A DNA stretch of 64,000 bases. It comes from Pseudoflavonifractor sp. MSJ-30. GTDB taxonomy: Bacteria; Bacillota; Clostridia; Oscillospirales; Oscillospiraceae. This document shows positions 7,236-64,000 of this stretch, one piece after another (positions within the stretch are counted from its first letter, which is position 1; every line of letters starts with the position of its first letter). The notes under the pieces were generated by a model. The model saw nothing but the letters and a program-made list of their open reading frames with translations, did no database searches and was not told the origin of the DNA. A program made the translations under genes and the position numbers. The stretch lies in NCBI RefSeq assembly GCF_018918045.1, contig NZ_JAHLPU010000048.1, positions 1-64,000 of the forward strand, in the 5' to 3' direction.

Positions 7236-7598
7236 ATGGACGATTTGAAACTCGGCACTGTGGAAGCGCGGTTTGCTGATATTATCTGGCAGCATGAGCC
7301 CCTTACTTCCAGAGAACTGGTGGAGCTGTGCGGTCGGGAACTGGACTGGAAAAAATCCACCACCTACACCGTTCTGAAACGGCTGTGTGAGAAAGGTATT
7401 TTCCAAAATGAAAACGGCACGGTCACATCCCGGATGACAAAGGCGGAGTATGCCTCGGCCCAGAGTGAGAAATTTGTCACGGACATCTTCGGCGGCTCTC
7501 TGCCCGCCTTCCTGGTAGCCTTTACCCGGCGGAAAAAGCTTTCTGAGGCCGACCTTGCCGAGATTCAGGAAATGATCCGACAGATGAGAAAGGAGTAA
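7236..7598 (+). CDS. BlaI/MecI/CopY-family repressor
   Basis: 120 aa winged-helix repressor: VEARFADIIWQHEPLTSRELVEL, then the recognition region WKKSTTYTVLKRLCEKG. The start at 7236 has AAGGAGG 7 bp upstream; the ATG at 7230 lies too close to it. Dimers of this family block their own promoter until cleaved by the partner metalloprotease encoded downstream. The operator pair at 7177-7221 supports autoregulation. The C-terminal half (LPAFLVAF onward) is the dimerisation region. Confidence 0.92.
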   Translation: MDDLKLGTVEARFADIIWQHEPLTSRELVELCGRELDWKKSTTYTVLKRLCEKGIFQNENGTVTSRMTKAEYASAQSEKFVTDIFGGSLPAFLVAFTRRKKLSEADLAEIQEMIRQMRKE

Positions 7599-7603
7599 GA
7601 GAT

Positions 7604-9043
7604 ATGTACAGCGCTTTTGTAACGCTCCTGAATATGAGCGCCGCCTCCGCCATTCTGATTGGCGTTGTGATGCTTTTGCGGCTGATTTTCCGGAATTTTC
7701 CGAAAAGGTACCTTTGTATCCTCTGGCTTTTTGTGGCTCTGCGGTTATGCTGCCCGGTTACCTTTTCCAGTGGTCTTTCCGTATTCAATCATGTGGGTGC
7801 CTTTCACAATGGACAGCTCGAGTACATCCGCTACAACCAGAAATCCGAGAAACCCATGGCAGAGATCCCCTATTTTGCGGCTGCGCCCACGGAAGACGGC
7901 CCAACCGCAACGCTCCATACACCAAATGTCTATCTGCCCGCGGTGATGTGCATCTGGGCGGGAGGGGCCTGTGTCATGCTTCTGTACGCTGCGGTAAGCT
8001 ATGCACGGGTACGCAGACGGACGAAGGAAAGCATCCCCTATGAAGGCAACATCTATTTCTGTGACCGTATTCCCTCCCCCTTCGTTCTGGGGCTGGCGCG
8101 GCCAAAAATCTATCTCCCTTCTGACATGGAGGAAGCACAGATGCAGCCTGTCATCGCCCACGAGCGCACCCATATCGCGCGGCTGGATCCCTGGCGGAAG
8201 CTCCTGGGCTTCCTGCTGCTGAGCATCCACTGGTTCAACCCTCTGGTCTGGGCTGCCTATGGGCTGTTCTGCCGGGATATGGAATTTGCCTGTGATGAGC
8301 AAGTTATCCGAAATATGGCCCCAGCTGGTAAACAGGCATATTCCAAAGCGCTTCTCGCCTGCTCTGTTCCCGGAAAGTTTATAACTGCCTGTCCCGTCGC
8401 TTTCGGAGAAGCCAGCGTCAAGCAGCGGATCAGGGGAATCCTGAACTACCGAAAGCCCACCTTCCGTGCCATTCTGGCAGCTGTCGTCATCTGTCTGACT
8501 GTTGCGGCCTGCTTCCTGACGAATCCTGTACGGGCAGGCGACTATATGAAGCTCAAGAGCTATCATAACACCCCCTTTGATCCTCCGCAGACTGCGGAAA
8601 TTCAGCTGCACACCTCCACTTTCAACACCGCCGTGACCATTCACGCGGAGCTTTGGGAAAACGGGACCTGCACCCAGAGCATCCCGCTGGACATTCCCCA
8701 GGGCACAAAGAATGTCCGTCTGTCCCTGAATCGAGAGGCAAAGGACTACGCAACCACAGCCTATCAAATTCAGGTCGATACCGACTCTTCCGAAGAATCC
8801 CTGACCGCCTCCATTTTCCTGCCGGAAAACAGCTACCTGCTGAACAGCCTGGAATGGTCCGGAGCCAAAACCATCGATCTGACACCTGACAGGGATATTC
8901 TGCTCAGCGCCATGATCTTCGACCACGGCGAGGCCGGATTCTTCCTGTTTTCATTTGACAATGAGGATTACAGGGAAAACGGGTACAGATTACAGGAGGC
9001 ATCGGAGTGCGCTGTGATCGTCTGGATGTCAGCGCAGAACTAA
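7604..9043 (+). CDS. BlaR1-type M56 metalloprotease sensor without a penicillin-binding domain
   Basis: 479 aa. Membrane helices near the N-terminus (MSAASAILIGVVMLLRLIF, LCILWLFVALRL) and around residue 110, then the M56 zinc-protease motif HERTH (about residues 186-190) and a further helix AILAAVVICLTVAACFL. In classical BlaR1 the last helix is followed by a roughly 250-residue beta-lactam-acylated domain with SxxK. Here only about 160 residues follow and I see no SxxK/YxN/KTG set, so the signal is probably not a beta-lactam. Coupled to blaI with a 5-bp gap and AAAGGAG site. Confidence 0.87.
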   Translation: MYSAFVTLLNMSAASAILIGVVMLLRLIFRNFPKRYLCILWLFVALRLCCPVTFSSGLSVFNHVGAFHNGQLEYIRYNQKSEKPMAEIPYFAAAPTEDGPTATLHTPNVYLPAVMCIWAGGACVMLLYAAVSYARVRRRTKESIPYEGNIYFCDRIPSPFVLGLARPKIYLPSDMEEAQMQPVIAHERTHIARLDPWRKLLGFLLLSIHWFNPLVWAAYGLFCRDMEFACDEQVIRNMAPAGKQAYSKALLACSVPGKFITACPVAFGEASVKQRIRGILNYRKPTFRAILAAVVICLTVAACFLTNPVRAGDYMKLKSYHNTPFDPPQTAEIQLHTSTFNTAVTIHAELWENGTCTQSIPLDIPQGTKNVRLSLNREAKDYATTAYQIQVDTDSSEESLTASIFLPENSYLLNSLEWSGAKTIDLTPDRDILLSAMIFDHGEAGFFLFSFDNEDYRENGYRLQEASECAVIVWMSAQN

Positions 9044-53816: not shown

Positions 53817-54431
53817 TCAGAGGAATGGATTTTCCTCCGTCTGGGCGGTGAGGGCGGATACCTCATAGGCCGTCCGTTCCTGAGCCCCGTCCTCGGTGAG
53901 CTTGGTATAGACCCGGCTTTGGAGCCTGCCCTGGATGGACAGCCGGTCCCGGGTGCGGCATCTGGCCCCCAGCTGGGCGGTGGAGCCCCAAAGGATGCAG
54001 GGAATGTAATCCGCCCGCCGGGTAGTCCGGGGCACCGCCAGCATCACATCGCATATCTCCCGCCCCAGGGGCGTTTTCCGATAATTGGAATCCCGGCACA
54101 GGCTGCCGCAGAGGGCAATATCATTGGCTGGCGGGCCGTCCTCGGCGGTAAGCGTCTGGGCAAAGACGAAGATCAGCAGCCTGCGCCCGTCCTCCCGGCG
54201 GAGATTGTGGGAACGGATCTGCCCCGTCACCGCCAGCATACGGCCTCCGGAAAGGTCCAGCGTTTCCAGAATGCGCTCCCGGACAATGACCGGCAGGGTG
54301 TCCACCGCGCCGGAAAGCCGTGGGACTTCCAGAAGAAATCGGTAAAAGCGGTCCCCGCCGCTTTCGTGAGAAAAGGCAGGCAGCTCCAGAAGACTGCCCC
54401 GGAGGAAGGCCTGATTGGTCGGATATTCCAT
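53817..54431 (-). CDS. SSB-like protein with two OB folds
   Basis: 204 aa from the ATG at 54431. Two consecutive OB-fold halves with similar layout: residues about 8-100 (LRGSLLELP..., RFYRFLLEVPRLSG, MLAVTGQIRSHN) and about 105-195 (LCGSLCRDSNYRKTPLGREICDVMLAVPR, ADYIPCILWG, LSIQGRLQSRVY). The second matches SSB/PriB proteins closely. There is no acidic SSB tail, so it is likely an accessory single-stranded DNA binding protein. Confidence 0.78.
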   Translation of the reverse strand: MEYPTNQAFLRGSLLELPAFSHESGGDRFYRFLLEVPRLSGAVDTLPVIVRERILETLDLSGGRMLAVTGQIRSHNLRREDGRRLLIFVFAQTLTAEDGPPANDIALCGSLCRDSNYRKTPLGREICDVMLAVPRTTRRADYIPCILWGSTAQLGARCRTRDRLSIQGRLQSRVYTKLTEDGAQERTAYEVSALTAQTEENPFL

Positions 54432-54502
54432 AAGTACCACCCCAAAATTTTCGTAGGATAGCACATCCTATGCGCCCCCGGGACAAACAGAACGCCCGGC
54501 TG

Positions 54503-54531
54503 TTGACTTCTCCCCGGCCGTAGGATAAAAT
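54503..54531 (+). promoter_or_regulatory. Promoter of the small membrane protein pair
   Basis: TTGACT (54503-54508) and TAAAAT (54526-54531), 17-bp spacer, 20 bp before the start codon at 54552. Confidence 0.75.
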
Positions 54532-54551
54532 GTGCCCAAGAGGTGATGCGC

Positions 54552-55193
54552 ATGATACAATGGCTCCACAATATTCGGGCCCCAAAAAAGCGGTACACCG
54601 TCTGGCAGGGCATCCGGCGGAGCTTACTCTGCCTGCTCCTGGGCGCTGCTCTGGGGGCGCTGGCAAAACAGCTGGACCTGGCCAGCTGCAGCGGCGCGAC
54701 CTTCTGGGAAAGGGTGCTGGAATGGCTGGATCTTCGGAATTTTCTGTCTGATTTCCCCTTCTGGCTGGCAGTCGGGCTGGCCATTGCGGTCTATGCCCCC
54801 TCGGCTTTCCAGGCCGGGGACGGAGTGTTTTTCTTCTTTCTGGGCATGTGCGGCGCGTACCACTGGTACAGCATACAATTCGGCGGCTTCAATCCCAGCG
54901 GGTATATGCGCATCTGGTACGGCCTGACGGCTCTTTCACCGGTGCTTGGTTGGCTGTGCTGGTACGCCAAGGGCAAGGGACCGGCTGCGGCGTGCATCCA
55001 AACGCTGATTCTGACGGTACTGCTCCTGAGCTGCTTTGGCATTGGCTTTTGGTACTTTGACTTCCGGGGAATTCTCTATACAGCCGCGTTTCTGGTCTGC
55101 GTGTTTATGCTGAACGCAAACTCCAAGCGAACCCTTGCGTGCCTGGGGAGCGCGGTTCTGTTGGCTTTTCTGCTGAGAGGTACTGTTTTATGA
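54552..55193 (+). CDS. Hypothetical membrane protein, 213 aa
   Basis: Start at the ATG at 54552, 6 bp after AAGAGGTG; ATG at 54546 overlaps the ribosome site. Six hydrophobic helices, with a striking Trp/Tyr-rich stretch (GAYHWYSIQFGGFNPSGYMRIWYGL) in the middle. No family recognised. Translationally coupled to the next small membrane protein through ATGA. Confidence 0.72.
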   Translation: MIQWLHNIRAPKKRYTVWQGIRRSLLCLLLGAALGALAKQLDLASCSGATFWERVLEWLDLRNFLSDFPFWLAVGLAIAVYAPSAFQAGDGVFFFFLGMCGAYHWYSIQFGGFNPSGYMRIWYGLTALSPVLGWLCWYAKGKGPAAACIQTLILTVLLLSCFGIGFWYFDFRGILYTAAFLVCVFMLNANSKRTLACLGSAVLLAFLLRGTVL

Positions 55194-55411
55194 AAAAACC
55201 GGATCAATTTTTGCATACCCTGTTTTGGGCAGCACCCGGAGTATTTGCGGGCATTGCCCTGTACGAATACATCGACTTCAGGGTCCGCCCCGGACTGTAC
55301 GCCATGCAGTCGGCCCCATGGTATGTGGGATTGCTTCCGCCGGGGGTGGTATGTCTCATGGTTATGGCAGCCGCCTGGGTGCTGCGCAGGGTGATCCGGA
55401 AGTGGCTTTGA
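55190..55411 (+). CDS. Small hypothetical membrane protein, 73 aa
   Basis: Start ATG overlaps the previous stop by 4 bp. Two hydrophobic helices (LHTLFWAAPGVFAGIALYEYI and VGLLPPGVVCLMVMAAAWVLR) ending in a basic RRVIRKWL tail. Probably works with the 213-aa partner; function unknown. Confidence 0.72.
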   Translation: MKKPDQFLHTLFWAAPGVFAGIALYEYIDFRVRPGLYAMQSAPWYVGLLPPGVVCLMVMAAAWVLRRVIRKWL

Positions 55412-55443
55412 GGAACGCGAAAGCGCCGCAAGAACAGAGATTA

Positions 55444-55479
55444 CGCAGAGGTCGACGGAGCGTCCGCCTCTGCGTTTTT
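55444..55479 (+). terminator. Rho-independent terminator
   Basis: CGCAGAGG / CCTCTGCG stem with a 15-nt loop and TTTTT, 32 bp after the 73-aa gene. Confidence 0.85.
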
Positions 55480-55586
55480 GTTTTCATCTGATAGCCAGCA
55501 CAGAAATTTTGGGAACACGCAACCTGTTCCCTCCCTGAATCGTTTGGTATACAGAAAGTACTTTCCAACATACAAAGGAGCTGCTT

Positions 55587-56059
55587 ATGAAGCTATCAGC
55601 TGAGGACGCGTTCCGTCAGTTCGGCGACCGGGTGTTTTCCACCGCGTTCAGCGCAACGGGGAACAAAGAGGACGCCGACGACGTAGTGCAGGACACATTT
55701 CTGAAATACTGGAATACGGACCAGGATTTTGCGGACGAAAACCATATCAAAGCCTGGCTGCTGCGGATGTCCATCAACCGGTCCCGGGATCTGCTGCGGT
55801 CCTTCTGGCATAGAAAAAAGGTGCCATGGGAGGACTGCTTCCTTTTGCGGAGCCGGAGGACAAGAACCTGTTTGAGGCGGTTATGGAGCTGCCACGGAAA
55901 TACCGGGTGACCATCCATCTGCATTATTACGAGGACCTGTCCGTTTCGGAAATCGCGGGAATCCTGCATACCACCGAGGGCACCGTGAAAAGCCAGCTGA
56001 GCAGAGGAAGAAAGCTCCTGAAAACCAAACTGATGGAGGCGTGGGACGATGACGAATAA
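55587..56059 (+). pseudogene. ECF sigma factor split by a frameshift
   Basis: Starts at ATG with AAAGGAG. Frame 1 (55587-55910) encodes region 2 of an ECF sigma: FGDRVFSTAFSATGNKEDADDVVQDTFLKYW and KAWLLRMSINRSRDLL. Near 55840 the homology moves by one base to the frame ending at 56059, which encodes region 4: LPRKYRVTIHLHYYEDLSVSEIAGILHTTEGTVKSQLSRGRKLLK. I see no slippery heptamer in the overlap (CTTCCTTTTG), so a one-base deletion, or a sequence error, is the likely cause. The partner gene downstream is intact. Confidence 0.82.
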
Positions 56060-56636
56060 GGAAAAATACCGGCGTGCCTTTGGTGTGCTGCACGCCTCCG
56101 ACGATTTTTTGACGGAGGCAAAAACCATGAAAATGAAAAAATTCACCGTGCGCAAGGCAGTCATTCTGTGCGCCGCGGCTGTGCTGATCCTGGGCATGGG
56201 GACGGTCGGCTACGCGGAAAACATCGGCGGCATTCGCCGTACCGTTCAGCTCTGGATCCACGGAGACCAGACTGATGCCGTCATGGACATTGAAAACGGA
56301 AACTATAGCCTTTCCTATGAAGACGAACAGGGCAGCCACGAGCGGGGCGGCGGCGGCGTAGCCATCGACAACTTTGGCCGGGAGCGGCCCTTGACGGACG
56401 AGGAGCTTCTGGAGGAGATCAGCAGCAACGTGGACGTGGAATATAAGGACGACGGTACCGTCTGGGTCTATTATCAGGACCAGGCCATGGAGATCACGGA
56501 TCTGTTTGATGAAAACAAGGTCTGCTATGTCCAGATCAAAACCGGAACGGAAACGATCTACGTCACCGTAAAGTACGGCGGAAGCCTTTCCTGGAGCAGT
56601 TTCGGCTATGTCCAGCCGGAGGAATTTTCAGATTAA
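56049..56636 (+). CDS. Membrane-anchored partner (anti-sigma-like) of the frameshifted ECF sigma
   Basis: 195 aa. Short cytosolic N-terminus, one membrane helix (AVILCAAAVLILGMGTVGYA, about residues 38-57) and an extracytoplasmic part with TVQLWIHGDQTDAVMDIENGNYSLSY. It begins 11 bp inside the sigma gene end, as anti-sigma genes do. No zinc motif. Structure parallels, but is shorter than, the partner at 27254. Confidence 0.78.
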   Translation: MTNKEKYRRAFGVLHASDDFLTEAKTMKMKKFTVRKAVILCAAAVLILGMGTVGYAENIGGIRRTVQLWIHGDQTDAVMDIENGNYSLSYEDEQGSHERGGGGVAIDNFGRERPLTDEELLEEISSNVDVEYKDDGTVWVYYQDQAMEITDLFDENKVCYVQIKTGTETIYVTVKYGGSLSWSSFGYVQPEEFSD

Positions 56637-56681
56637 TACAAAGGTGCCGCCGCATAAAGCGGCAGCCCAATATAAACAATG

Positions 56682-56705
56682 CACCCAGTGAATTTTCACT
56701 GGGTG
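56682..56705 (+). terminator. Terminator of the ECF/anti-sigma operon
   Basis: CACCCAGTGAA / TTCACTGGGTG perfect 11-bp stem with a 2-nt loop, followed by TTATTGTTCTTT. Confidence 0.85.
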
Positions 56706-56708
56706 TTA

Positions 56709-56755
56709 TTGTTCTTTCTGGGAATATGTGTTATTTTGTCAATGCAAATAACACA
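56709..56755 (+). promoter_or_regulatory. Promoter/dyad region of the secreted peptide gene
   Basis: TTGTTC (56709-56714), 17-bp spacer, TATTTT (56732-56737). Immediately upstream of the -10 is ATATGTGTTAT (56724-56734), repeated before the exporter at 59410. A perfect 10-bp dyad, TGTGTTATTT / AAATAACACA (56727-56755), overlaps the -10. Good candidate operator. Confidence 0.55.
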
Positions 56756-56770
56756 CAGGGGGGCAACATT

Positions 56771-56920
56771 GTGAAGAAAAAATTGGCACTGTTTATGGCT
56801 CTCTTGGCCATTTGCCTATCCATGGCAAACGTGTCTGCACGGGCGGACCATACGTACAGACATAATGCAGCACCCTATTCAGAGTCTAGTCCGCCTCGTG
56901 AGATACCAATTGAAGACTAG
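56771..56920 (+). CDS. Small secreted peptide, candidate signalling pheromone
   Basis: 49 aa from a GTG at 56771 with a GGGGGG site. A signal peptide (KKKLALFMALLAICLSMANVSA) precedes about 26 residues that begin RADHTYRHNAAPYS and end with SSPPREIPIED. Its last 35 bp overlap the 3' end of the convergent Rgg/PlcR-like regulator gene, the layout of streptococcal group III SHP-Rgg pairs and of short pheromone genes in RRNPP systems. A mature C-terminal fragment is the inferred signal. No homologue is recalled. Confidence 0.62.
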   Translation: MKKKLALFMALLAICLSMANVSARADHTYRHNAAPYSESSPPREIPIED

Positions 56921-57854
56921 GCGTGATCCCCAAATGTCGTTTCATGTCGTCAGAAATTGCTTGTTCTGCCACTTTATCTTCTGTTATGACAGCGAAGGCA
57001 TAAGCATGTAGGAAAAATTCCCTGCCACGGTCCGGTTTTCTCAGGAAGCAATTCGCTTCTGCCAATTCGTCCAGAAATTCTACCAACGGAAAGTAATAGG
57101 AGTTTTCCAGGCAAAGGCGCCGGCCTTCCTCCGCAAGGCATATGGCCTGCGCATATTGCTCTTCGAGCATCAAAGATCGTACATAATTCGATATGATTGG
57201 GCAGAGGTAGGACTTTGCTATTGGAATTTCCTGGAAATTTTTCTTTACATACGTATACAATTGCTGAAAAAAAGATGCTGCTTCGCTCTTATTCGGCTCC
57301 AAAAGATAGGTTATTCCAAGCTGGTTCAATATTCTTATCTCAAATGTAGAATACCTCCCCTTTGCAATGTTATGCACATCGAATTTGGGACAAGTCATAC
57401 GAATAACACTGAATAGCTTCTCCCGTTTTTCCAAGGGTGTATAGGGCCTGCCCTCCTTCCCAAGAGTCAGTTGCGCGCAGACAATCCGCTGCTGGGTAAA
57501 CACGTCAAAATGTATTGTATCTGCCTTTAGCTCCTCTACGATTTGCGAAACCTCTTTTCGGATTCTGTTTTCGTCAGTGCTGTTCTTTTCATACTGCGCA
57601 ACCAGCGCATCCATCCTTTTCAGCAGGAATTCCGTGTGCTGTTCCGCGTTAAAGGCCCACAGGAAGTAACGGTTTTCCGGCAGGTCCAGCCTGCCAAGAA
57701 TCGCCCGCAGCAGCGGAAGCTTTGGGCTTTGTATACCGCTCTCAATTCTGGAGATGGAGACAACGCTGCAAATGCCATCCGCCAAATCTGCCTGGGTCAG
57801 CCCCAATGCCTCCCGTTTTTGCCGGATAACATCTCCAATATATGCTTCACTCAT
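56886..57854 (-). CDS. Rgg/PlcR-like (RRNPP-type) transcriptional regulator
   Basis: 322 aa. N-terminal XRE HTH (GDVIRQKREALGLTQADLADGICSVVSISRIESG, about residues 6-42), then a long helical region of TPR-like repeats (for example YTPLEKREKLFSVIRMTC and YVRSLMLEEQYAQAICLAEEGRRL) that in this superfamily binds imported peptides. It is divergent from the radical SAM gene (89 bp between starts) and convergent, with overlap, to the secreted peptide gene. Likely controls the locus; peptide binding is inferred from fold and context. Confidence 0.82.
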   Translation of the reverse strand: MSEAYIGDVIRQKREALGLTQADLADGICSVVSISRIESGIQSPKLPLLRAILGRLDLPENRYFLWAFNAEQHTEFLLKRMDALVAQYEKNSTDENRIRKEVSQIVEELKADTIHFDVFTQQRIVCAQLTLGKEGRPYTPLEKREKLFSVIRMTCPKFDVHNIAKGRYSTFEIRILNQLGITYLLEPNKSEAASFFQQLYTYVKKNFQEIPIAKSYLCPIISNYVRSLMLEEQYAQAICLAEEGRRLCLENSYYFPLVEFLDELAEANCFLRKPDRGREFFLHAYAFAVITEDKVAEQAISDDMKRHLGITPSLQLVSHEAD

Positions 57855-57943
57855 GTTCCTTCCTCACGCTTTTATAGATTCCTTATGATAATACTACAGC
57901 TTTCAAACATTTTCAATACTTTTATTGCAAAAGGAGAATCGAA

Positions 57944-59188
57944 ATGAATCGAAACAAAGAGAAGCGTCTTCAAATATCCGCAAGATATGCACTTCAATTC
58001 TATGGAGAATCACTTTACCTGTTCGATACCTATCACGGATTTGAAGAATATCAACTTAACAGTGTCGAAGCAGATATTCTTCTCCTGATAAATAAATTGC
58101 ATAACTTACATAACGTATTTTCACAACTTAGTAAGGACTACAACCTTTCTGCTGATTCAACAGAAGTACACGAATTATTTGATGCTTTCATTTCGAGAAT
58201 GGAAAGACGCGAGATTCTTGAAACAGGAAATCTGGAGCATCTGGTTGTCGGAGTCCCTAACACTTGTTATCCTATAATATTTGCAATTGAATTAACCGAC
58301 AGATGTAATTTTGAATGTAGCCATTGCTATAAGGATGCAATGAAACGAAATTCCTGCTACATCCCCACTCAATTTGTAGAGACACTTTTTGAAGATATCT
58401 CCGGGAAAACATGGCATGTTGAATTCACCGGTGGAGAAGCAACGCTGCATCCAGATTTTGAACACATAATTGAGAAGGCAAATTTTCCTTCTATGGCGTT
58501 GTTGACAAATGGGTCTAGATTATCAGAAATTTCTCTAGATATTCTAAAGAAGTTTAATAACATCCAGATATCTTGCTACGGGGCGTCAGCCAACGAATAT
58601 CAGGAATACACAAAATCTGGAGCATTTAACAGTTTTTGTGCCGGAATCAAACGATTAACAGCAGAAAATGTCGATACAACCATCGCATTGATCCTCCGAA
58701 AGACAAACTTCCAAAGACTTGAAGAATATGCAAGTATGTTTTCAGATTTGGGCGTGAAGGATATTCGATTTGGACTTACCCGAAAACTTGGACGAAACTC
58801 TGACGGGGTCACTGAATGGGATATGTCGTATGATGAATGTTTACTATTTGATGATGTACTTAGTGAAGTAAAACAAAAATTTCCATCCCTGCAATTTCTT
58901 CCGTTTAATTGGAAGCATGACTATGAATCGTCTTTTGTTACGAAGGAGCATTATCAAATCGGTTGCTCCGCTGGAAGAAAGTCAATTGTTATTTCGGAAC
59001 ATGAGATGGTTCGCCCCTGTACAATGATGCCAGCCGATTATTTTGGAAAGTATTCCTAGGATGAATATAAAAAAATAATTGATTCAGGAAATCAGTTCGA
59101 TTTTTCAGGGTGCGTTGAGAATTGCTTGCAGGCTTATAAAAAGCAAGGAAAACGCCTTGATTCTATTTGTGAACATGCCTTTATCTAA
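57944..59188 (+). pseudogene. Radical SAM/SPASM RiPP maturase interrupted by an amber codon
   Basis: Start at ATG with AAAGGAG. Residues 1-95: PqqD-like RRE (YQLNSVEADILLLINKL, VHELFDAFISRMERREIL). Radical SAM core with CX3CX2C at C121, C125 and C128 (DRCNFECSHCY) and FTGGEATLHPDF. SPASM begins at GCSAGRKSIVI..VRPCTMMP. Codon 372 (59057-59059) is TAG; the same frame continues 42 codons to TAA at 59188 with GCVENC and SIC, which are the remaining SPASM cysteines. Without readthrough the 371-aa product loses those ligands. GC content here is near 37%, well below the flanks. Confidence 0.85.
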
Positions 59189-59213
59189 AAACCTCACGCA
59201 AATTTTTATCGAT

Positions 59214-59235
59214 TTCAATGGAATTCTCCATTGAA
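59214..59235. repeat. Hairpin upstream of the RiPP precursor
   Basis: TTCAATGGA / TCCATTGAA perfect 9-bp stem with loop ATTC, between the maturase and the precursor. No T-run on the plus strand; it could be a processing site, weak attenuator or protein-binding dyad. Confidence 0.55.
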
Positions 59236-59264
59236 TATATTCCATATTAAAAGGAGGTGGCAAT

Positions 59265-59393
59265 ATGAAAAATCAGGAAGCATTTCTGGCGGCACTGAAG
59301 AATCCCGGCCCAATTTTCACTCCGCAGTGCAATCACCAGACCGGATGCGGGACTACTACCACTGCTCCGAACCATAACAAGGATCACATCTAG
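59265..59393 (+). CDS. Candidate RiPP precursor peptide, 42 aa
   Basis: ATG at 59265 with a near-perfect AAGGAGGTGG 4 bp upstream. No signal peptide. Leader-like MKNQEAFLAALKNPGPIF, then a core-like C-terminus with Cys21 and Cys28 (CNHQTGC) followed by GTTTTAPNHN. Small size, the Cys/Thr/Asn/His-rich tail, position after an RRE-radical SAM gene and before two ABC genes all fit a sactipeptide or ranthipeptide precursor. The cross-links and mature product are unknown. I do not recall a homologue. Confidence 0.75.
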   Translation: MKNQEAFLAALKNPGPIFTPQCNHQTGCGTTTTAPNHNKDHI

Positions 59394-59438
59394 TTGACAC
59401 CCGTCCGGCATATGTGTTATAACATGCATATGCCGGAC
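59394..59438 (+). promoter_or_regulatory. Exporter promoter with overlapping 12-bp dyad
   Basis: TTGACA (59394-59399) and TATAAC (59418-59423) are 18 bp apart. A perfect 12-bp inverted repeat, GTCCGGCATATG (59403-59414) and CATATGCCGGAC (59427-59438), brackets the -10. The word ATATGTGTTAT (59410-59420) is shared with the peptide promoter. As RNA it would also form a hairpin right after the precursor stop, so it could act as attenuator or as operator. Confidence 0.6.
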
Positions 59439-59475
59439 ACTTTATGTACAAATTCCAAGAAAAGGATGCGAAAGA

Positions 59476-60993
59476 ATGGATATATCTATTGGCGCTGCAT
59501 TCCAAAAATCTCTGGTCATGGGCTGCGCCTATCGGTTGTTTCGTGCCGGAAGCTCGCTTTGCTGCGCCTGGCTGATCTCTCAGCTGTTTCAGCGCGCCGT
59601 GGCGGGGAACTTCGGGGCGGTGGCCAATCTGGCAGGGCTGCTCTGCGCCGCGGTGGCCATCGGGAGCTTCGGATGCCTCGGATTGACGAAGAAGAATGAA
59701 CGCGTCTGCGCGGCAGAGCGCCAGGATTTTCGGGCGCTTCAGCAGCAGCGGATCCTGAACTTCCGCCTGCCGGCGGCTTCCCCCGGAGAAATGGAGACGC
59801 GGCTGAATGAGGATGGCGGCGTTATCGCGGACCACTACCAAAAAATACTGCCGGACGCCGTGGAGGGCGTCACCATGATCGTGGGAAGCGTTCTCCTGAT
59901 GTGCCGGACCAATCCCTGGATATCCGTGATCCTGCTGGGGTGCAGCCTGCTGCAAATGGTCCCCACCATCGTATATCAGAAATGGGCAAAGCGGATCTAT
60001 GAATCTATTGCGGACCACGAAGAAGAGGAATGGGATTGGCTGGCCCAGGGCGTGGAGGGACTGCGCACGCTAAAGCTCTACAGCCGGGAGCAATGGTACA
60101 TTGGCCGCTACCGGGAAATCGGCCGGATGTGCGTCACAGCAGGTGGACAGGCGGAATTTACCGGCGGCATCGAGAACATCATTTTTGAGGGCATCCACGC
60201 TTTCCTCAGCTACGGAGCCTATTTTCTGCTTGGCGTTTTCCTGTTTCGCGGAGCGTTGACGGCGGGACAGGCTCCCGGCATGATCGTGCTGAGCGGCTAT
60301 CTGTTTTCCAATGTAAACGCCTTATTCAACCTGAGCATTCAATCGGCGGTATTCCGGACGGCAAAGGAGCGCCTGACCTGCCGCGCGGCCCCGGCGGCAG
60401 GCGAAGCAAAGGGGGCGCTCCTGGAGGTTTGCGATGTCAGCAAAGCGTTCAAAAAGAAAACCGTGCTTTCGCGTCTCAGCTTTGCCATAGAGTCCGGTCA
60501 GCGTATCCGGGTGCAGGGGCCCAACGGATCCGGGAAATCCACCCTTCTGCGGCTCATTACAGGCGTTTTGTCCCCGGACAGCGGAGAGATCCGCAGACAG
60601 GCAGAGATCGCCTGGTCCATGCAGGAGGAGCCGGAACTGCTGCTGACGGGGGACGCGCTGCTGGCGGCGGTCCGGTCCACCGGATGCCTGGACGAAAATA
60701 CGTTCCGGCGGCATTGCCGCGGCTTCCGCATTCCGGAGGCGCTGTTTGCCCAGCCCGTGGGCAGCTGGTCCATGGGCGAACGCAAAAAGCTGTTTCTGGC
60801 GCTGGCCCTGGCAAAAAAGGCGGAGCTTCTGATCCTGGACGAGCCAACCAACCACATAGATACGGACGCCCGCGGCTATCTGAAGGACCAGCTGGCGCAA
60901 TATCCCGGGGCTATGCTGGTCTGCACCCATGATCCATATCTGGATATCCCCTGGGACCGCGTGGTGTATCTGAAGGGAGGCGAGCGGATATGA
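59476..60993 (+). CDS. ABC exporter half-transporter (permease-ATPase) A
   Basis: 505 aa. An N-terminal membrane domain with about six helices, then an ATPase domain: Walker A GPNGSGKST (near residue 348), a divergent signature SMGERKK in place of LSGGQ (near residue 431), Walker B LLILDEPTNHID. No C39 peptidase domain, so leader removal must be done elsewhere. The start ATG has a weak GGA site. Ends with the ATGA overlap of half-transporter B. Presumed to export the RiPP or confer immunity. Confidence 0.85.
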   Translation: MDISIGAAFQKSLVMGCAYRLFRAGSSLCCAWLISQLFQRAVAGNFGAVANLAGLLCAAVAIGSFGCLGLTKKNERVCAAERQDFRALQQQRILNFRLPAASPGEMETRLNEDGGVIADHYQKILPDAVEGVTMIVGSVLLMCRTNPWISVILLGCSLLQMVPTIVYQKWAKRIYESIADHEEEEWDWLAQGVEGLRTLKLYSREQWYIGRYREIGRMCVTAGGQAEFTGGIENIIFEGIHAFLSYGAYFLLGVFLFRGALTAGQAPGMIVLSGYLFSNVNALFNLSIQSAVFRTAKERLTCRAAPAAGEAKGALLEVCDVSKAFKKKTVLSRLSFAIESGQRIRVQGPNGSGKSTLLRLITGVLSPDSGEIRRQAEIAWSMQEEPELLLTGDALLAAVRSTGCLDENTFRRHCRGFRIPEALFAQPVGSWSMGERKKLFLALALAKKAELLILDEPTNHIDTDARGYLKDQLAQYPGAMLVCTHDPYLDIPWDRVVYLKGGERI

Positions 60994-62579
60994 CCGATTT
61001 TTCCGCAAAGCAGGCCCGCAGGGAATGCCGGAGCTATATCTGGCCCTGCGCTTTTTTGTATCTTCTCCAGGATCTGAGCGGGTTCGTGGTGCCGACGGTG
61101 GCCTCCGTGCTGATCGGCAGCATGGCGGACAGCCTGCTGGCACTGGATATGGCGGCCGTAAAGGGGCAGCTCCTGCCCTTTCTCGCCGCGCTGCTGATGC
61201 AGACCGTGGTGATGCAGCTGCTGGAAATGGCGGGAAATATCACCATCGTCAAAAGATGCTACGCCTATACTGCGCATCTGATCGCGCGCTTTCTGCGCCG
61301 GCCCCTGGCGCAGACGGAGCAGATCCGCCCGGGGGCCTTTGTAGAGCGGGTCACGACGGATATACCAGGTTTCTTTTACAACCAGATCTGGAAATATACC
61401 GCCCCGGTCTGCTTTTCTCTCTATGGCCTGCTGATGGTCGTTTTACTGCTGCGGGCGAAAATCGAGCCGGTATTTGTGCTTGCGGTGCTGGCCCTTTCGG
61501 CGGTACCGGTCATCCGCGCGAAGATCATCGCGCCCAAGCGCGCCAAGGTGGATACGCTTGTCCGGGAGTTTGAGGAGAAACGGAAGCGGGAGGAATACGC
61601 GCTGTTTCAGTCCCGTGAATTTGTCCATGGCTTCCATCTGGAGGGCTTCTTCCTGGAGGGGCTTCAGCAGCGGTTCCAGGCGTTTCTCGCGGGGGCGCAC
61701 AGCGCCCGGCGCAGACTGAACGCCGAGGACGCGGTGCTGGAACAGCTCTGTCAGTATGGCGTCCCGCTGGGGGTATTGACGATCGGGGCGCTACTGCTTG
61801 CCCGGGGCCGGTTAAGCGCCGGAGAACTGGTGGCGGGATATCTGCTGCTGCCGACCATAACCCGTTTCTACAAAACGGCAGCGCGTCAGATTCTGGAGCG
61901 CCGGGCCGAGCCGGAAAAGCTGGAACGACTCCGGATTTTTTATGGGGATGAACAGGAACGGCTTTCGCCGGAGAACATCCCGGAAAGCGAGGACGCATCC
62001 GCGGCAGAGCTGCGCATGGAGGATATCCGCTTCGGCTATCCCGGCCAGACGAAGCCGGTTCTGGAGCATTACAGCCGTACATTCTCCGCGGACGCCCGGG
62101 AAATTCTCTCAGGGGCCAACGGAAGCGGAAAAACGACCATACTGTCGCTGCTGTGCGGGTTATATGAACCCCAGGCGGGCAAAATCACAGATGCAAACGG
62201 CAGGACGCTTCCCCCGGAGGTCCGTGGAGGGCTTATCACCATGCAGGAACAGAACGGAAAGCTTTTCTCCGGAACGGTTGCGGAGAACCTGTTCCTTTCC
62301 CCGGAGCAAATGGAGGAAGGGGCGGCAGTCTTGCGGGGAATGGGGTTTGAAAAGCCCCTGGATCAGGCGGTGCTGTCCAATGGAAGCAACCTGTCCCCCG
62401 GCGAACGGGAAAAAATCATTCTGACCCGCGCGCTGCTGCGGAATACGGCGTTTCTGGCCCTGGATGAACCCTTAAACCATCTGGATGCCAAGGGCCGGGA
62501 ATTTCTGAAGCAGTATCTCGATCAACGCAAAGCTGGACTTATCCTTGTGAACCACCAAAAGGAAGAGAACCAAAGCTGA
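60990..62579 (+). CDS. ABC exporter half-transporter (permease-ATPase) B
   Basis: 529 aa. Six-helix membrane domain (for example LLPFLAALLMQTVVMQLLEMAG) with EEKRKREEYALFQSREFVHGFHLEGFF, then Walker A GANGSGKTT (near residue 376), signature LSPGEREKIILTRALL, Walker B FLALDEPLNHLDAKG. Overlaps A by 4 bp, so the two form a heterodimer with unequal signature motifs. High-GC, unlike the precursor/maturase part of the locus. Confidence 0.85.
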   Translation: MTDFSAKQARRECRSYIWPCAFLYLLQDLSGFVVPTVASVLIGSMADSLLALDMAAVKGQLLPFLAALLMQTVVMQLLEMAGNITIVKRCYAYTAHLIARFLRRPLAQTEQIRPGAFVERVTTDIPGFFYNQIWKYTAPVCFSLYGLLMVVLLLRAKIEPVFVLAVLALSAVPVIRAKIIAPKRAKVDTLVREFEEKRKREEYALFQSREFVHGFHLEGFFLEGLQQRFQAFLAGAHSARRRLNAEDAVLEQLCQYGVPLGVLTIGALLLARGRLSAGELVAGYLLLPTITRFYKTAARQILERRAEPEKLERLRIFYGDEQERLSPENIPESEDASAAELRMEDIRFGYPGQTKPVLEHYSRTFSADAREILSGANGSGKTTILSLLCGLYEPQAGKITDANGRTLPPEVRGGLITMQEQNGKLFSGTVAENLFLSPEQMEEGAAVLRGMGFEKPLDQAVLSNGSNLSPGEREKIILTRALLRNTAFLALDEPLNHLDAKGREFLKQYLDQRKAGLILVNHQKEENQS

Positions 62580-62580
62580 A

Positions 62581-62627
62581 AAAGGGGCTGTCTCACATGA
62601 TTTCTCATCATGCTGCGACAGCCCTTT
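62581..62627. terminator. Bidirectional terminator after the exporter
   Basis: AAGGGGCTGTC pairs with GACAGCCCTTT, with an inner ATGAT/ATCAT helix. On the minus strand it ends in CCCCTTTTTC, so it also serves the lipoprotein transcript. Confidence 0.75.
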
Positions 62628-62645
62628 CCTATTCACACAAACGCG

Positions 62646-62888
62646 CTACGGCGTCGTCTCCATGGCCTCCCCTCTCTGGGCAGAGCGAAGCTCCGCGGGA
62701 ACATAGTCGATTTTCAGCTTGTCCTCGTCCGGAAGCGTGTTGTACCATTCCAGCCATTCCAGTGTCTCCCTGGAAAGCGCGGCGGCACTGTAGGTCCGTC
62801 CCTCATATTGGACGGTCTTTCCGCAGCCGGTCAGAAGCAGTCCGCACAGGCAGCAGGCAAGGAATACCTTTGCTCTCAAAGAGTTCAC
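62646..62888 (-). CDS. Small lipoprotein
   Basis: 80 aa from the GTG at 62888, or 77 aa from the TTG at 62879, which has better spacing to AAAAGGGG. Lipoprotein signal RAKVFLACCLCGLLLTGCG with lipobox LTGC, then about 58 residues including TYSAAALSRETLEWLEWYNTLPDEDKLKIDYVP. Function unknown. 7 bp beyond the rhomboid-like gene on the same strand, likely one transcript. Confidence 0.75.
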   Translation of the reverse strand: MNSLRAKVFLACCLCGLLLTGCGKTVQYEGRTYSAAALSRETLEWLEWYNTLPDEDKLKIDYVPAELRSAQRGEAMETTP

Positions 62889-62895
62889 GCCCCTT

Positions 62896-63880: not shown

Positions 63881-63900
63881 ACAGAAAACTGCATATGTAG

Positions 63901-63989
63901 CCTTATCAAGAGTGGTGGAGGGAACGGCCCGATGAAACCCGGCAACCTGTTTATCAAGGTGCTAAATCCGGCGGCAACGAAAGATGAGG
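63901..63989 (+). ncRNA. SAM-I (S-box) riboswitch aptamer
   Basis: Conserved S-box landmarks in order: CTTATCAAGAG, GGAGGGA, GGCCCGATGAAACCCGGCAA, AAGGTGCTAAATCC and GAAAGATGAGG. P1 is formed by CTTATC with GATGAG. The expression platform and target, typically a methionine or SAM biosynthesis or uptake gene, are cut off by the window end. Confidence 0.95.
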
Positions 63990-64000
63990 ATTCGATTCAT

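Follow-up and report, generated by a model that had tools for sequence, protein, structure and literature searches.

A candidate PlcR-type peptide-receptor pair beside a putative radical SAM RiPP cassette with an interrupted maturase gene in Pseudoflavonifractor sp. MSJ-30

A gene for a secreted small peptide, a convergent regulator gene, a radical S-adenosylmethionine (SAM) maturase gene, a short candidate precursor gene and two genes of an ATP-binding cassette (ABC) exporter lie side by side at positions 56709-62579 of contig NZ_JAHLPU010000048.1 from Pseudoflavonifractor sp. MSJ-30; the stretch of 64,000 nt that was analysed is called the window below. The peptide gene (56771-56920, plus strand, GTG start, stop codon at 56918-56920) encodes 49 residues with a signal peptide-like start, MKKKLALFMALLAICLSMANVSARADHTYRHNAAPYSESSPPREIPIED, a candidate pheromone propeptide. 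Directly before it stands a perfect inverted repeat, TGTGTTATTT-N9-AAATAACACA (56727-56755), a candidate operator of the regulator, and a terminator-like hairpin on the plus strand (56681-56706, an 11-bp perfect inverted repeat) parts the peptide gene from sigma-factor and membrane-protein genes upstream. The regulator of 322 residues is encoded on the minus strand (56886-57854), the 3′ ends of the two genes overlapping by 35 bp. All further genes are on the plus strand: the maturase gene (57944-59059), closed by an in-frame TAG (59057-59059) after 371 codons; a detached C-terminal tail of the maturase in the same frame (59060-59188); the 42-residue candidate precursor, MKNQEAFLAALKNPGPIFTPQCNHQTGCGTTTTAPNHNKDHI (59265-59393, behind AAAAGGAGGTGG); and the ABC half-transporters of 505 (59476-60993) and 529 residues (60990-62579), the start of the second overlapping the stop of the first. 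An inverted repeat with 12-bp arms, carrying TGTGTTATAACA, is located between the precursor and exporter genes (59403-59438), either as a terminator of the precursor transcript or as an operator. A preliminary description made from the DNA letters had named these genes, and the secreted peptide, the convergent regulator, the 42-residue open reading frame (ORF) and the paired half-transporters are all found as it proposed; of the maturase, which it had read as one frame from 57944 to 59188, the radical SAM identity and the start hold, and the intact frame does not.

The regulator had been described as Rgg/PlcR-like. Its RRNPP class is upheld, and the type can be narrowed to PlcR: a sequence search of PDB gives PlcR (2qfc) as the best match with E 3.4e-6, and the AlphaFold model (mean confidence score, pLDDT, of 88) is best matched by the PlcR-PapR7-DNA structure (3u3w, E 1.4e-7), followed by ComR and Rgg2. 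In Pfam, HTH_3 is matched, and RNPP_C weakly, under its cut-off. The predicted fold consists of an N-terminal helix-turn-helix (HTH) domain and a C-terminal superhelix of tetratricopeptide repeats (TPR), and the adjacent small gene encodes an exported propeptide. From sequence and model, the protein is assigned as an RRNPP receptor of the PlcR type.

Relatives of this pair are found elsewhere in the order. Same-genus genomes hold receptors 34-37% identical to the window regulator, and a profile made from these leads to further ones in Oscillospirales metagenome-assembled genomes and in the isolate Pseudoflavonifractor An44. Of 24 distinct regulator loci, 13 have a convergent ORF with a ribosome-binding site (RBS) and a hydrophobic signal that stops no more than a few tens of bases from the 3′ end of the regulator gene (with duplicates counted, 19 of 33), versus none of 138 other genes taken as controls from the same contigs. 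At one locus, L085, such an ORF is visible by eye, yet it fails these mechanical criteria. The convergent peptides are 41-63 residues long with Sec-type signals; the 49-residue peptide of the window resembles these signal-type peptides, and its mature part contains no Cys. The regulator's relatives thus indicate by comparison that the peptide-receptor circuit is real, the assignment of the signalling half as an RRNPP system is well supported, and the signalling arm looks intact in this genome. Some regulators of a second subfamily stand beside tandem arrays of similar lipoproteins (L082, 4849-10000; L083, 1321-4947; L091, 9055-10710) with the signal ...ACGPAP..TET..NPFTQ, and at least two of these regulators have convergent peptides.

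The palindrome before the peptide gene has arms of 10 bp; with up to 3 mismatches allowed, the window contains no second copy, and 100 shuffles contain none. Analogous palindromes precede the peptide genes at most of the related loci, and receptors of another subfamily have different long palindromes at this place. A consensus promoter scan gave no excess over shuffles.

Further comparative evidence comes from sister loci in three other Oscillospirales genomes, L084 (in the same-genus genome G002), L088 and L089, where regulator, convergent peptide, short Cys-containing precursor, radical SAM enzyme and ABC exporter are found together, with the RiPP (ribosomally synthesized and post-translationally modified peptide) genes divergent from the regulator. 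The precursors are 31-37 residues long and share a MEV[VI] start (MEVVATKLPLAINSRFFDTIVNNVAGCGCKK; MEVIAAKKPLSVLAHARDINNNCKGCRPPIPPANACD; MEVVESKRSLIAAVCRNGNGTCGNNSFCPDVL). The radical SAM/SPASM enzymes of L088 and L089 are 51-57% identical to that of L084, and the ABC exporters 49-50%; tblastn shows the L088 radical SAM gene to be intact. Two of these three enzymes were compared with NCBIfam and are under every cut-off, the nearest family being TIGR04463. In all three loci a 42-bp palindrome (ATCGTTTTRTGTTA-N8-TAACACAAAACGAT and variants) of fixed spacing precedes the peptide gene and, in a further copy, the RiPP operon. The sites were chosen by eye before scoring, which makes the leave-one-out ranking the fair test; with a matrix made in this way the own sites of each omitted locus are still the top matches in 9.7-17 kb. 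In the window, this sister-locus operator scores 4.4 bits at best, and does so at places that have nothing to do with the locus; in that form, the operator is judged absent there.

Two more loci belong to this comparison. At L085, the 42-bp palindrome precedes the peptide gene and a weaker copy precedes the exporter; at 7515-7857, a precursor-like ORF is kept beside what is no more than a fragment of the radical SAM gene, and the exporter is kept as well, which is a second case of maturase loss in the group. The MSJ-30 genome itself harbors a second locus, L080 (G000:C30, 3931-8290), with a regulator, a convergent 47-residue peptide, a 31-residue Cys-containing ORF (MKILVEASKIVHMSRGCAHGHDSKHDMDPFG), a radical SAM enzyme and an ABC exporter. 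The palindrome in the promoter of the L080 peptide, CCATGCCGTAAT..GGAAAA, is common to a Lachnospiraceae locus (L092).

The maturase of the window is of the SkfB/AlbA-like type. It matches PF04055 in Pfam with E 2.2e-14, its CxxxCxxC motif is intact, and its best PDB match is SkfB (6efn), with E 1e-18 across residues 36-360. This alignment begins inside the N-terminal region, for which Pfam gave no match to a RiPP recognition element (RRE) or PqqD domain. The enzyme stays under the curated cut-offs of NCBIfam (TIGR04403, 79.9 of 300 bits; NF012164, 78.2 of 850 bits). The TAG is codon 372, so that the last 42 residues are lost. After it, the tail DEYKK...CVENC...CEHAFI stays in frame for 42 codons and has the same AT-rich bias at third codon positions: the G+C fraction at these positions (GC3) is 0.29 in the tail and 0.33 in the main part, while host-like genes have about 0.72. 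Alignment with SkfB and other relatives places the last three cysteines in the lost tail, so the encoded protein has the CxxxCxxC motif while the three C-terminal cysteines of a complete enzyme lie behind the TAG. Because the nonsense codon removes these cysteines, the RiPP arm of the sequenced strain is probably inactive or weakly active. No other lesion is present in the maturase or its tail. A recent nonsense mutation is the simplest reading of the TAG, which may also be an error or a strain variant in the single assembly.

The preliminary description had made its proposal depend on conserved neighbourhoods. This check came out mixed. For the regulator and peptide, homologous neighbourhoods exist, as described above; for the maturase, no close relative was found in 99 genomes of relatives, 391 of the class, 398 of the phylum and 136 of the genus, nor in further genome and viral contigs, and the 42-residue frame likewise has no relative in the collections searched. 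The nearest maturase relatives are about 22-28% identical, and matches on plasmids and phages are at most about 30% identical. On the small Vagococcus fluvialis plasmid p12B2_p3 (L030, 3734-5171), an ABC-like frame follows an HTH regulator, a 59-residue hypothetical ORF and a radical SAM gene with 26% identity to the window maturase, together a possible RiPP cassette.

In the intergenic stretches of the locus, no small plus-strand ORF other than that of 42 residues has a consensus RBS. When the gap was shuffled with dinucleotides preserved, 28% of the shuffles contained an ATG ORF of 42 codons or more, and just 0.12% contained one with a strong RBS. Besides its RBS and position, the 42-residue ORF has two Cys and a Thr run, and its second half is rich in Cys and Thr. 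No family is matched in NCBIfam or Pfam; weak matches elsewhere, which fell in different reading frames or in proteins of no relation, were put down to chance.

Both exporter halves match ABC_tran over the cut-off; the first also matches ABC_membrane, and the second does so with E 8e-5, slightly under the cut-off. As to the setting, the locus lies in a variable insertion. In genome G030, a rhomboid gene adjoins the gene that matches window positions 53820-54464, and 8.4 kb separate the two here; at this site (54465-62895), G013 and G019 carry other genes between the same flanks. By GC3, the maturase is the most foreign gene (0.33), whereas the ABC genes, with 0.72-0.73, look resident. Some 2 kb upstream of the maturase, an ECF (extracytoplasmic function) sigma-factor gene (55587-56059) is frameshifted, with region 2 (55587-55910) and region 4 (55826-56059) in different frames. 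Near the window end, a SAM riboswitch (RF00162, 74 bits) is found at 63900-63990.

Taken as a whole, the locus is fairly probably an RRNPP quorum-sensing pair joined to a radical SAM RiPP cassette. In such a circuit, the 49-residue peptide would leave the cell through its Sec signal, be trimmed outside and be re-imported, and the trimmed peptide would bind the PlcR-like regulator at its TPR domain. The peptide-bound regulator may then act at the palindrome before the peptide gene, giving positive feedback, and may also act on the neighbouring RiPP genes, a direct control of the maturase being presumed. The N-terminal region of the maturase would hold the 42-residue precursor, and the enzyme would form Cys-based thioether bridges in the QCNHQTGCGTTTT region; the paired half-transporters could export the product or protect the cell. 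The parts themselves, the kinship with PlcR, the recurring convergent peptide and the operator shared by the sister loci are direct results of the computation; all the functional steps are our inference. The RiPP half is supported on comparative grounds by the sister loci with a like control unit, and is unique and probably damaged here. The most likely reading is that of a recently acquired, RRNPP-controlled radical SAM RiPP cassette with a nonsense-damaged maturase.

Several results weigh against this reading. There is no palindrome before the maturase gene, so that adjacency is the ground for assuming that the regulator controls it, and across the genome the half-site TGTGTTA...TAACA shows no enrichment relative to a reversed control pattern. 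The uniqueness of the 42-residue ORF in the collections searched leaves its translation and its role as substrate without support from conservation. Furthermore, where relatives of the ABC pair occur in the genus, they follow different HTH regulators and no RiPP is present; in view of this and of the GC3 contrast with the maturase, the ABC genes may be an older, separate unit, and the exporter may be no part of the cassette. The earlier proposal, that the peptide signal switches on production of a thioether-type RiPP, therefore has to be divided. The link between a peptide signal and a radical SAM RiPP has strong comparative support from other Oscillospirales loci and from the second locus of the same genome, but production of a thioether RiPP by MSJ-30 is doubtful because of the interrupted maturase gene, the lack of a palindrome before it and the possibly separate origin of the ABC genes.

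Among the other explanations, the one that comes closest to an even chance, though falling short of it, is decay of the RiPP half into a relic: after its arrival by transfer, the cassette lost the maturase to mutation, and selection now maintains only the signalling pair and the exporter (serving in immunity or drug efflux). The in-frame TAG, the frameshifted sigma-factor gene upstream, the atypical GC3 of the maturase and the absence of the 8.4-kb region from between the same flanking genes in G030 are consistent with it, as is L085, where precursor and ABC gene have outlived the maturase. The maturase and its tail, however, are otherwise free of lesions, which would make the loss recent, and with a single assembly a strain variant or error is possible. 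It is rather unlikely that the 42-residue ORF is not the precursor and that the maturase acts on another peptide, e.g., the 49-residue secreted peptide, or on a precursor encoded elsewhere in the genome. Such a substrate would agree with the missing homologues of the ORF and with the gene order at the sister loci, where the precursor precedes the maturase, whereas in the window it follows; but the ORF has the strong RBS, right size, two Cys and Thr run described above and no competitor of its kind in the intergenic stretches, and the 49-residue peptide has a Cys-free mature part and the look of a signal. Still less likely, in our estimate, the regulator-peptide pair controls itself and perhaps the exporter only, the radical SAM gene and the precursor being independent neighbours. 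An inverted repeat indeed stands before the ABC genes and no palindrome before the maturase, but that repeat may equally be a terminator, and in three sister loci the sites of the same regulator family lie exactly before the precursor-radical SAM operon. Finally, readthrough of the TAG by a suppressor tRNA, pyrrolysine or a reassigned code, giving the full-length maturase, is very improbable in spite of the 42 open codons with matching codon bias behind it, as TAG is an ordinary stop here, closing the ORFs of the peptide and the precursor as well, and no match to pyrrolysyl-tRNA synthetase (PylS) over the cut-off was found in the genome.

Among known systems, PlcR of the Bacillus cereus group, with its peptide PapR, is what the regulator matches best in both sequence and fold, and the 49-residue peptide, a long Sec-type propeptide with an acidic, Pro-containing C-terminus (REIPIED), may resemble PapR. 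The PapR gene is located downstream of the PlcR gene in the same orientation, whereas the window peptide gene is convergent and overlapping, and the regulator is 18-19% identical to PlcR in the fold alignment. The maturase has the CxxxCxxC motif in common with the sactipeptide maturases SkfB and AlbA, and its C-terminal Cys pattern is similar to theirs; unlike these, it lies far under the equivalog cut-offs and is cut by the TAG, and the precursor matches no known family. In streptococci, radical SAM RiPP loci controlled by Rgg and short hydrophobic peptides (SHPs) are known for streptide, streptosactin and tryglysin (PMC13361665), and in group III Rgg/SHP loci the peptide gene is also convergent and overlapping (PMC13361665; PMC3679016). 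There, too, an RRNPP receptor and an adjacent exported peptide stand beside a precursor, a radical SAM enzyme and a transporter. The window differs in that its receptor is closer to PlcR than to Rgg, its host belongs to the Oscillospiraceae, its precursor and maturase are of other families and the maturase is interrupted; and while SHPs have 22-26 residues in published examples (PMC3679016) and a conserved Asp/Glu, the window peptide has 49 and a Sec-type signal. The RRNPP_detector catalogue lists 196 biosynthetic gene clusters next to RRNPP systems, with RiPPs as the most frequent class, an association of the same kind; its families include Clostridiaceae, Peptoniphilaceae and Tissierellaceae, and Oscillospiraceae is not listed (PMC10075063). 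In the library of papers searched, none connects Oscillospiraceae or Ruminococcaceae with radical SAM, RiPP and quorum sensing. Peptide-controlled radical SAM RiPPs are thus already known in streptococci, and what appears to be new is their control by a PlcR-type receptor with a Sec-exported peptide in Oscillospiraceae.

More widely, the chances seem evenly balanced that gut Oscillospirales have an undescribed PlcR-type pheromone family, with a convergent, 3′-overlapping Sec propeptide and a long palindromic operator specific to each receptor subfamily, and that this family serves as a portable control unit, with radical SAM RiPP cassettes of unrelated kinds (MEV-leader Cys peptides, the L080 type and the SkfB-like type of the window) attached to it in exchange. 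Little is known of the signal peptides and products of uncultured gut Oscillospiraceae. The sister loci offer a concrete, testable circuit of receptor, propeptide, 42-bp operator, precursor, maturase and exporter, and a handle for inducing silent RiPPs by synthetic peptides. The window, where a like control unit stands on a different cassette whose maturase is interrupted, bears on the swapping and loss of such cassettes.

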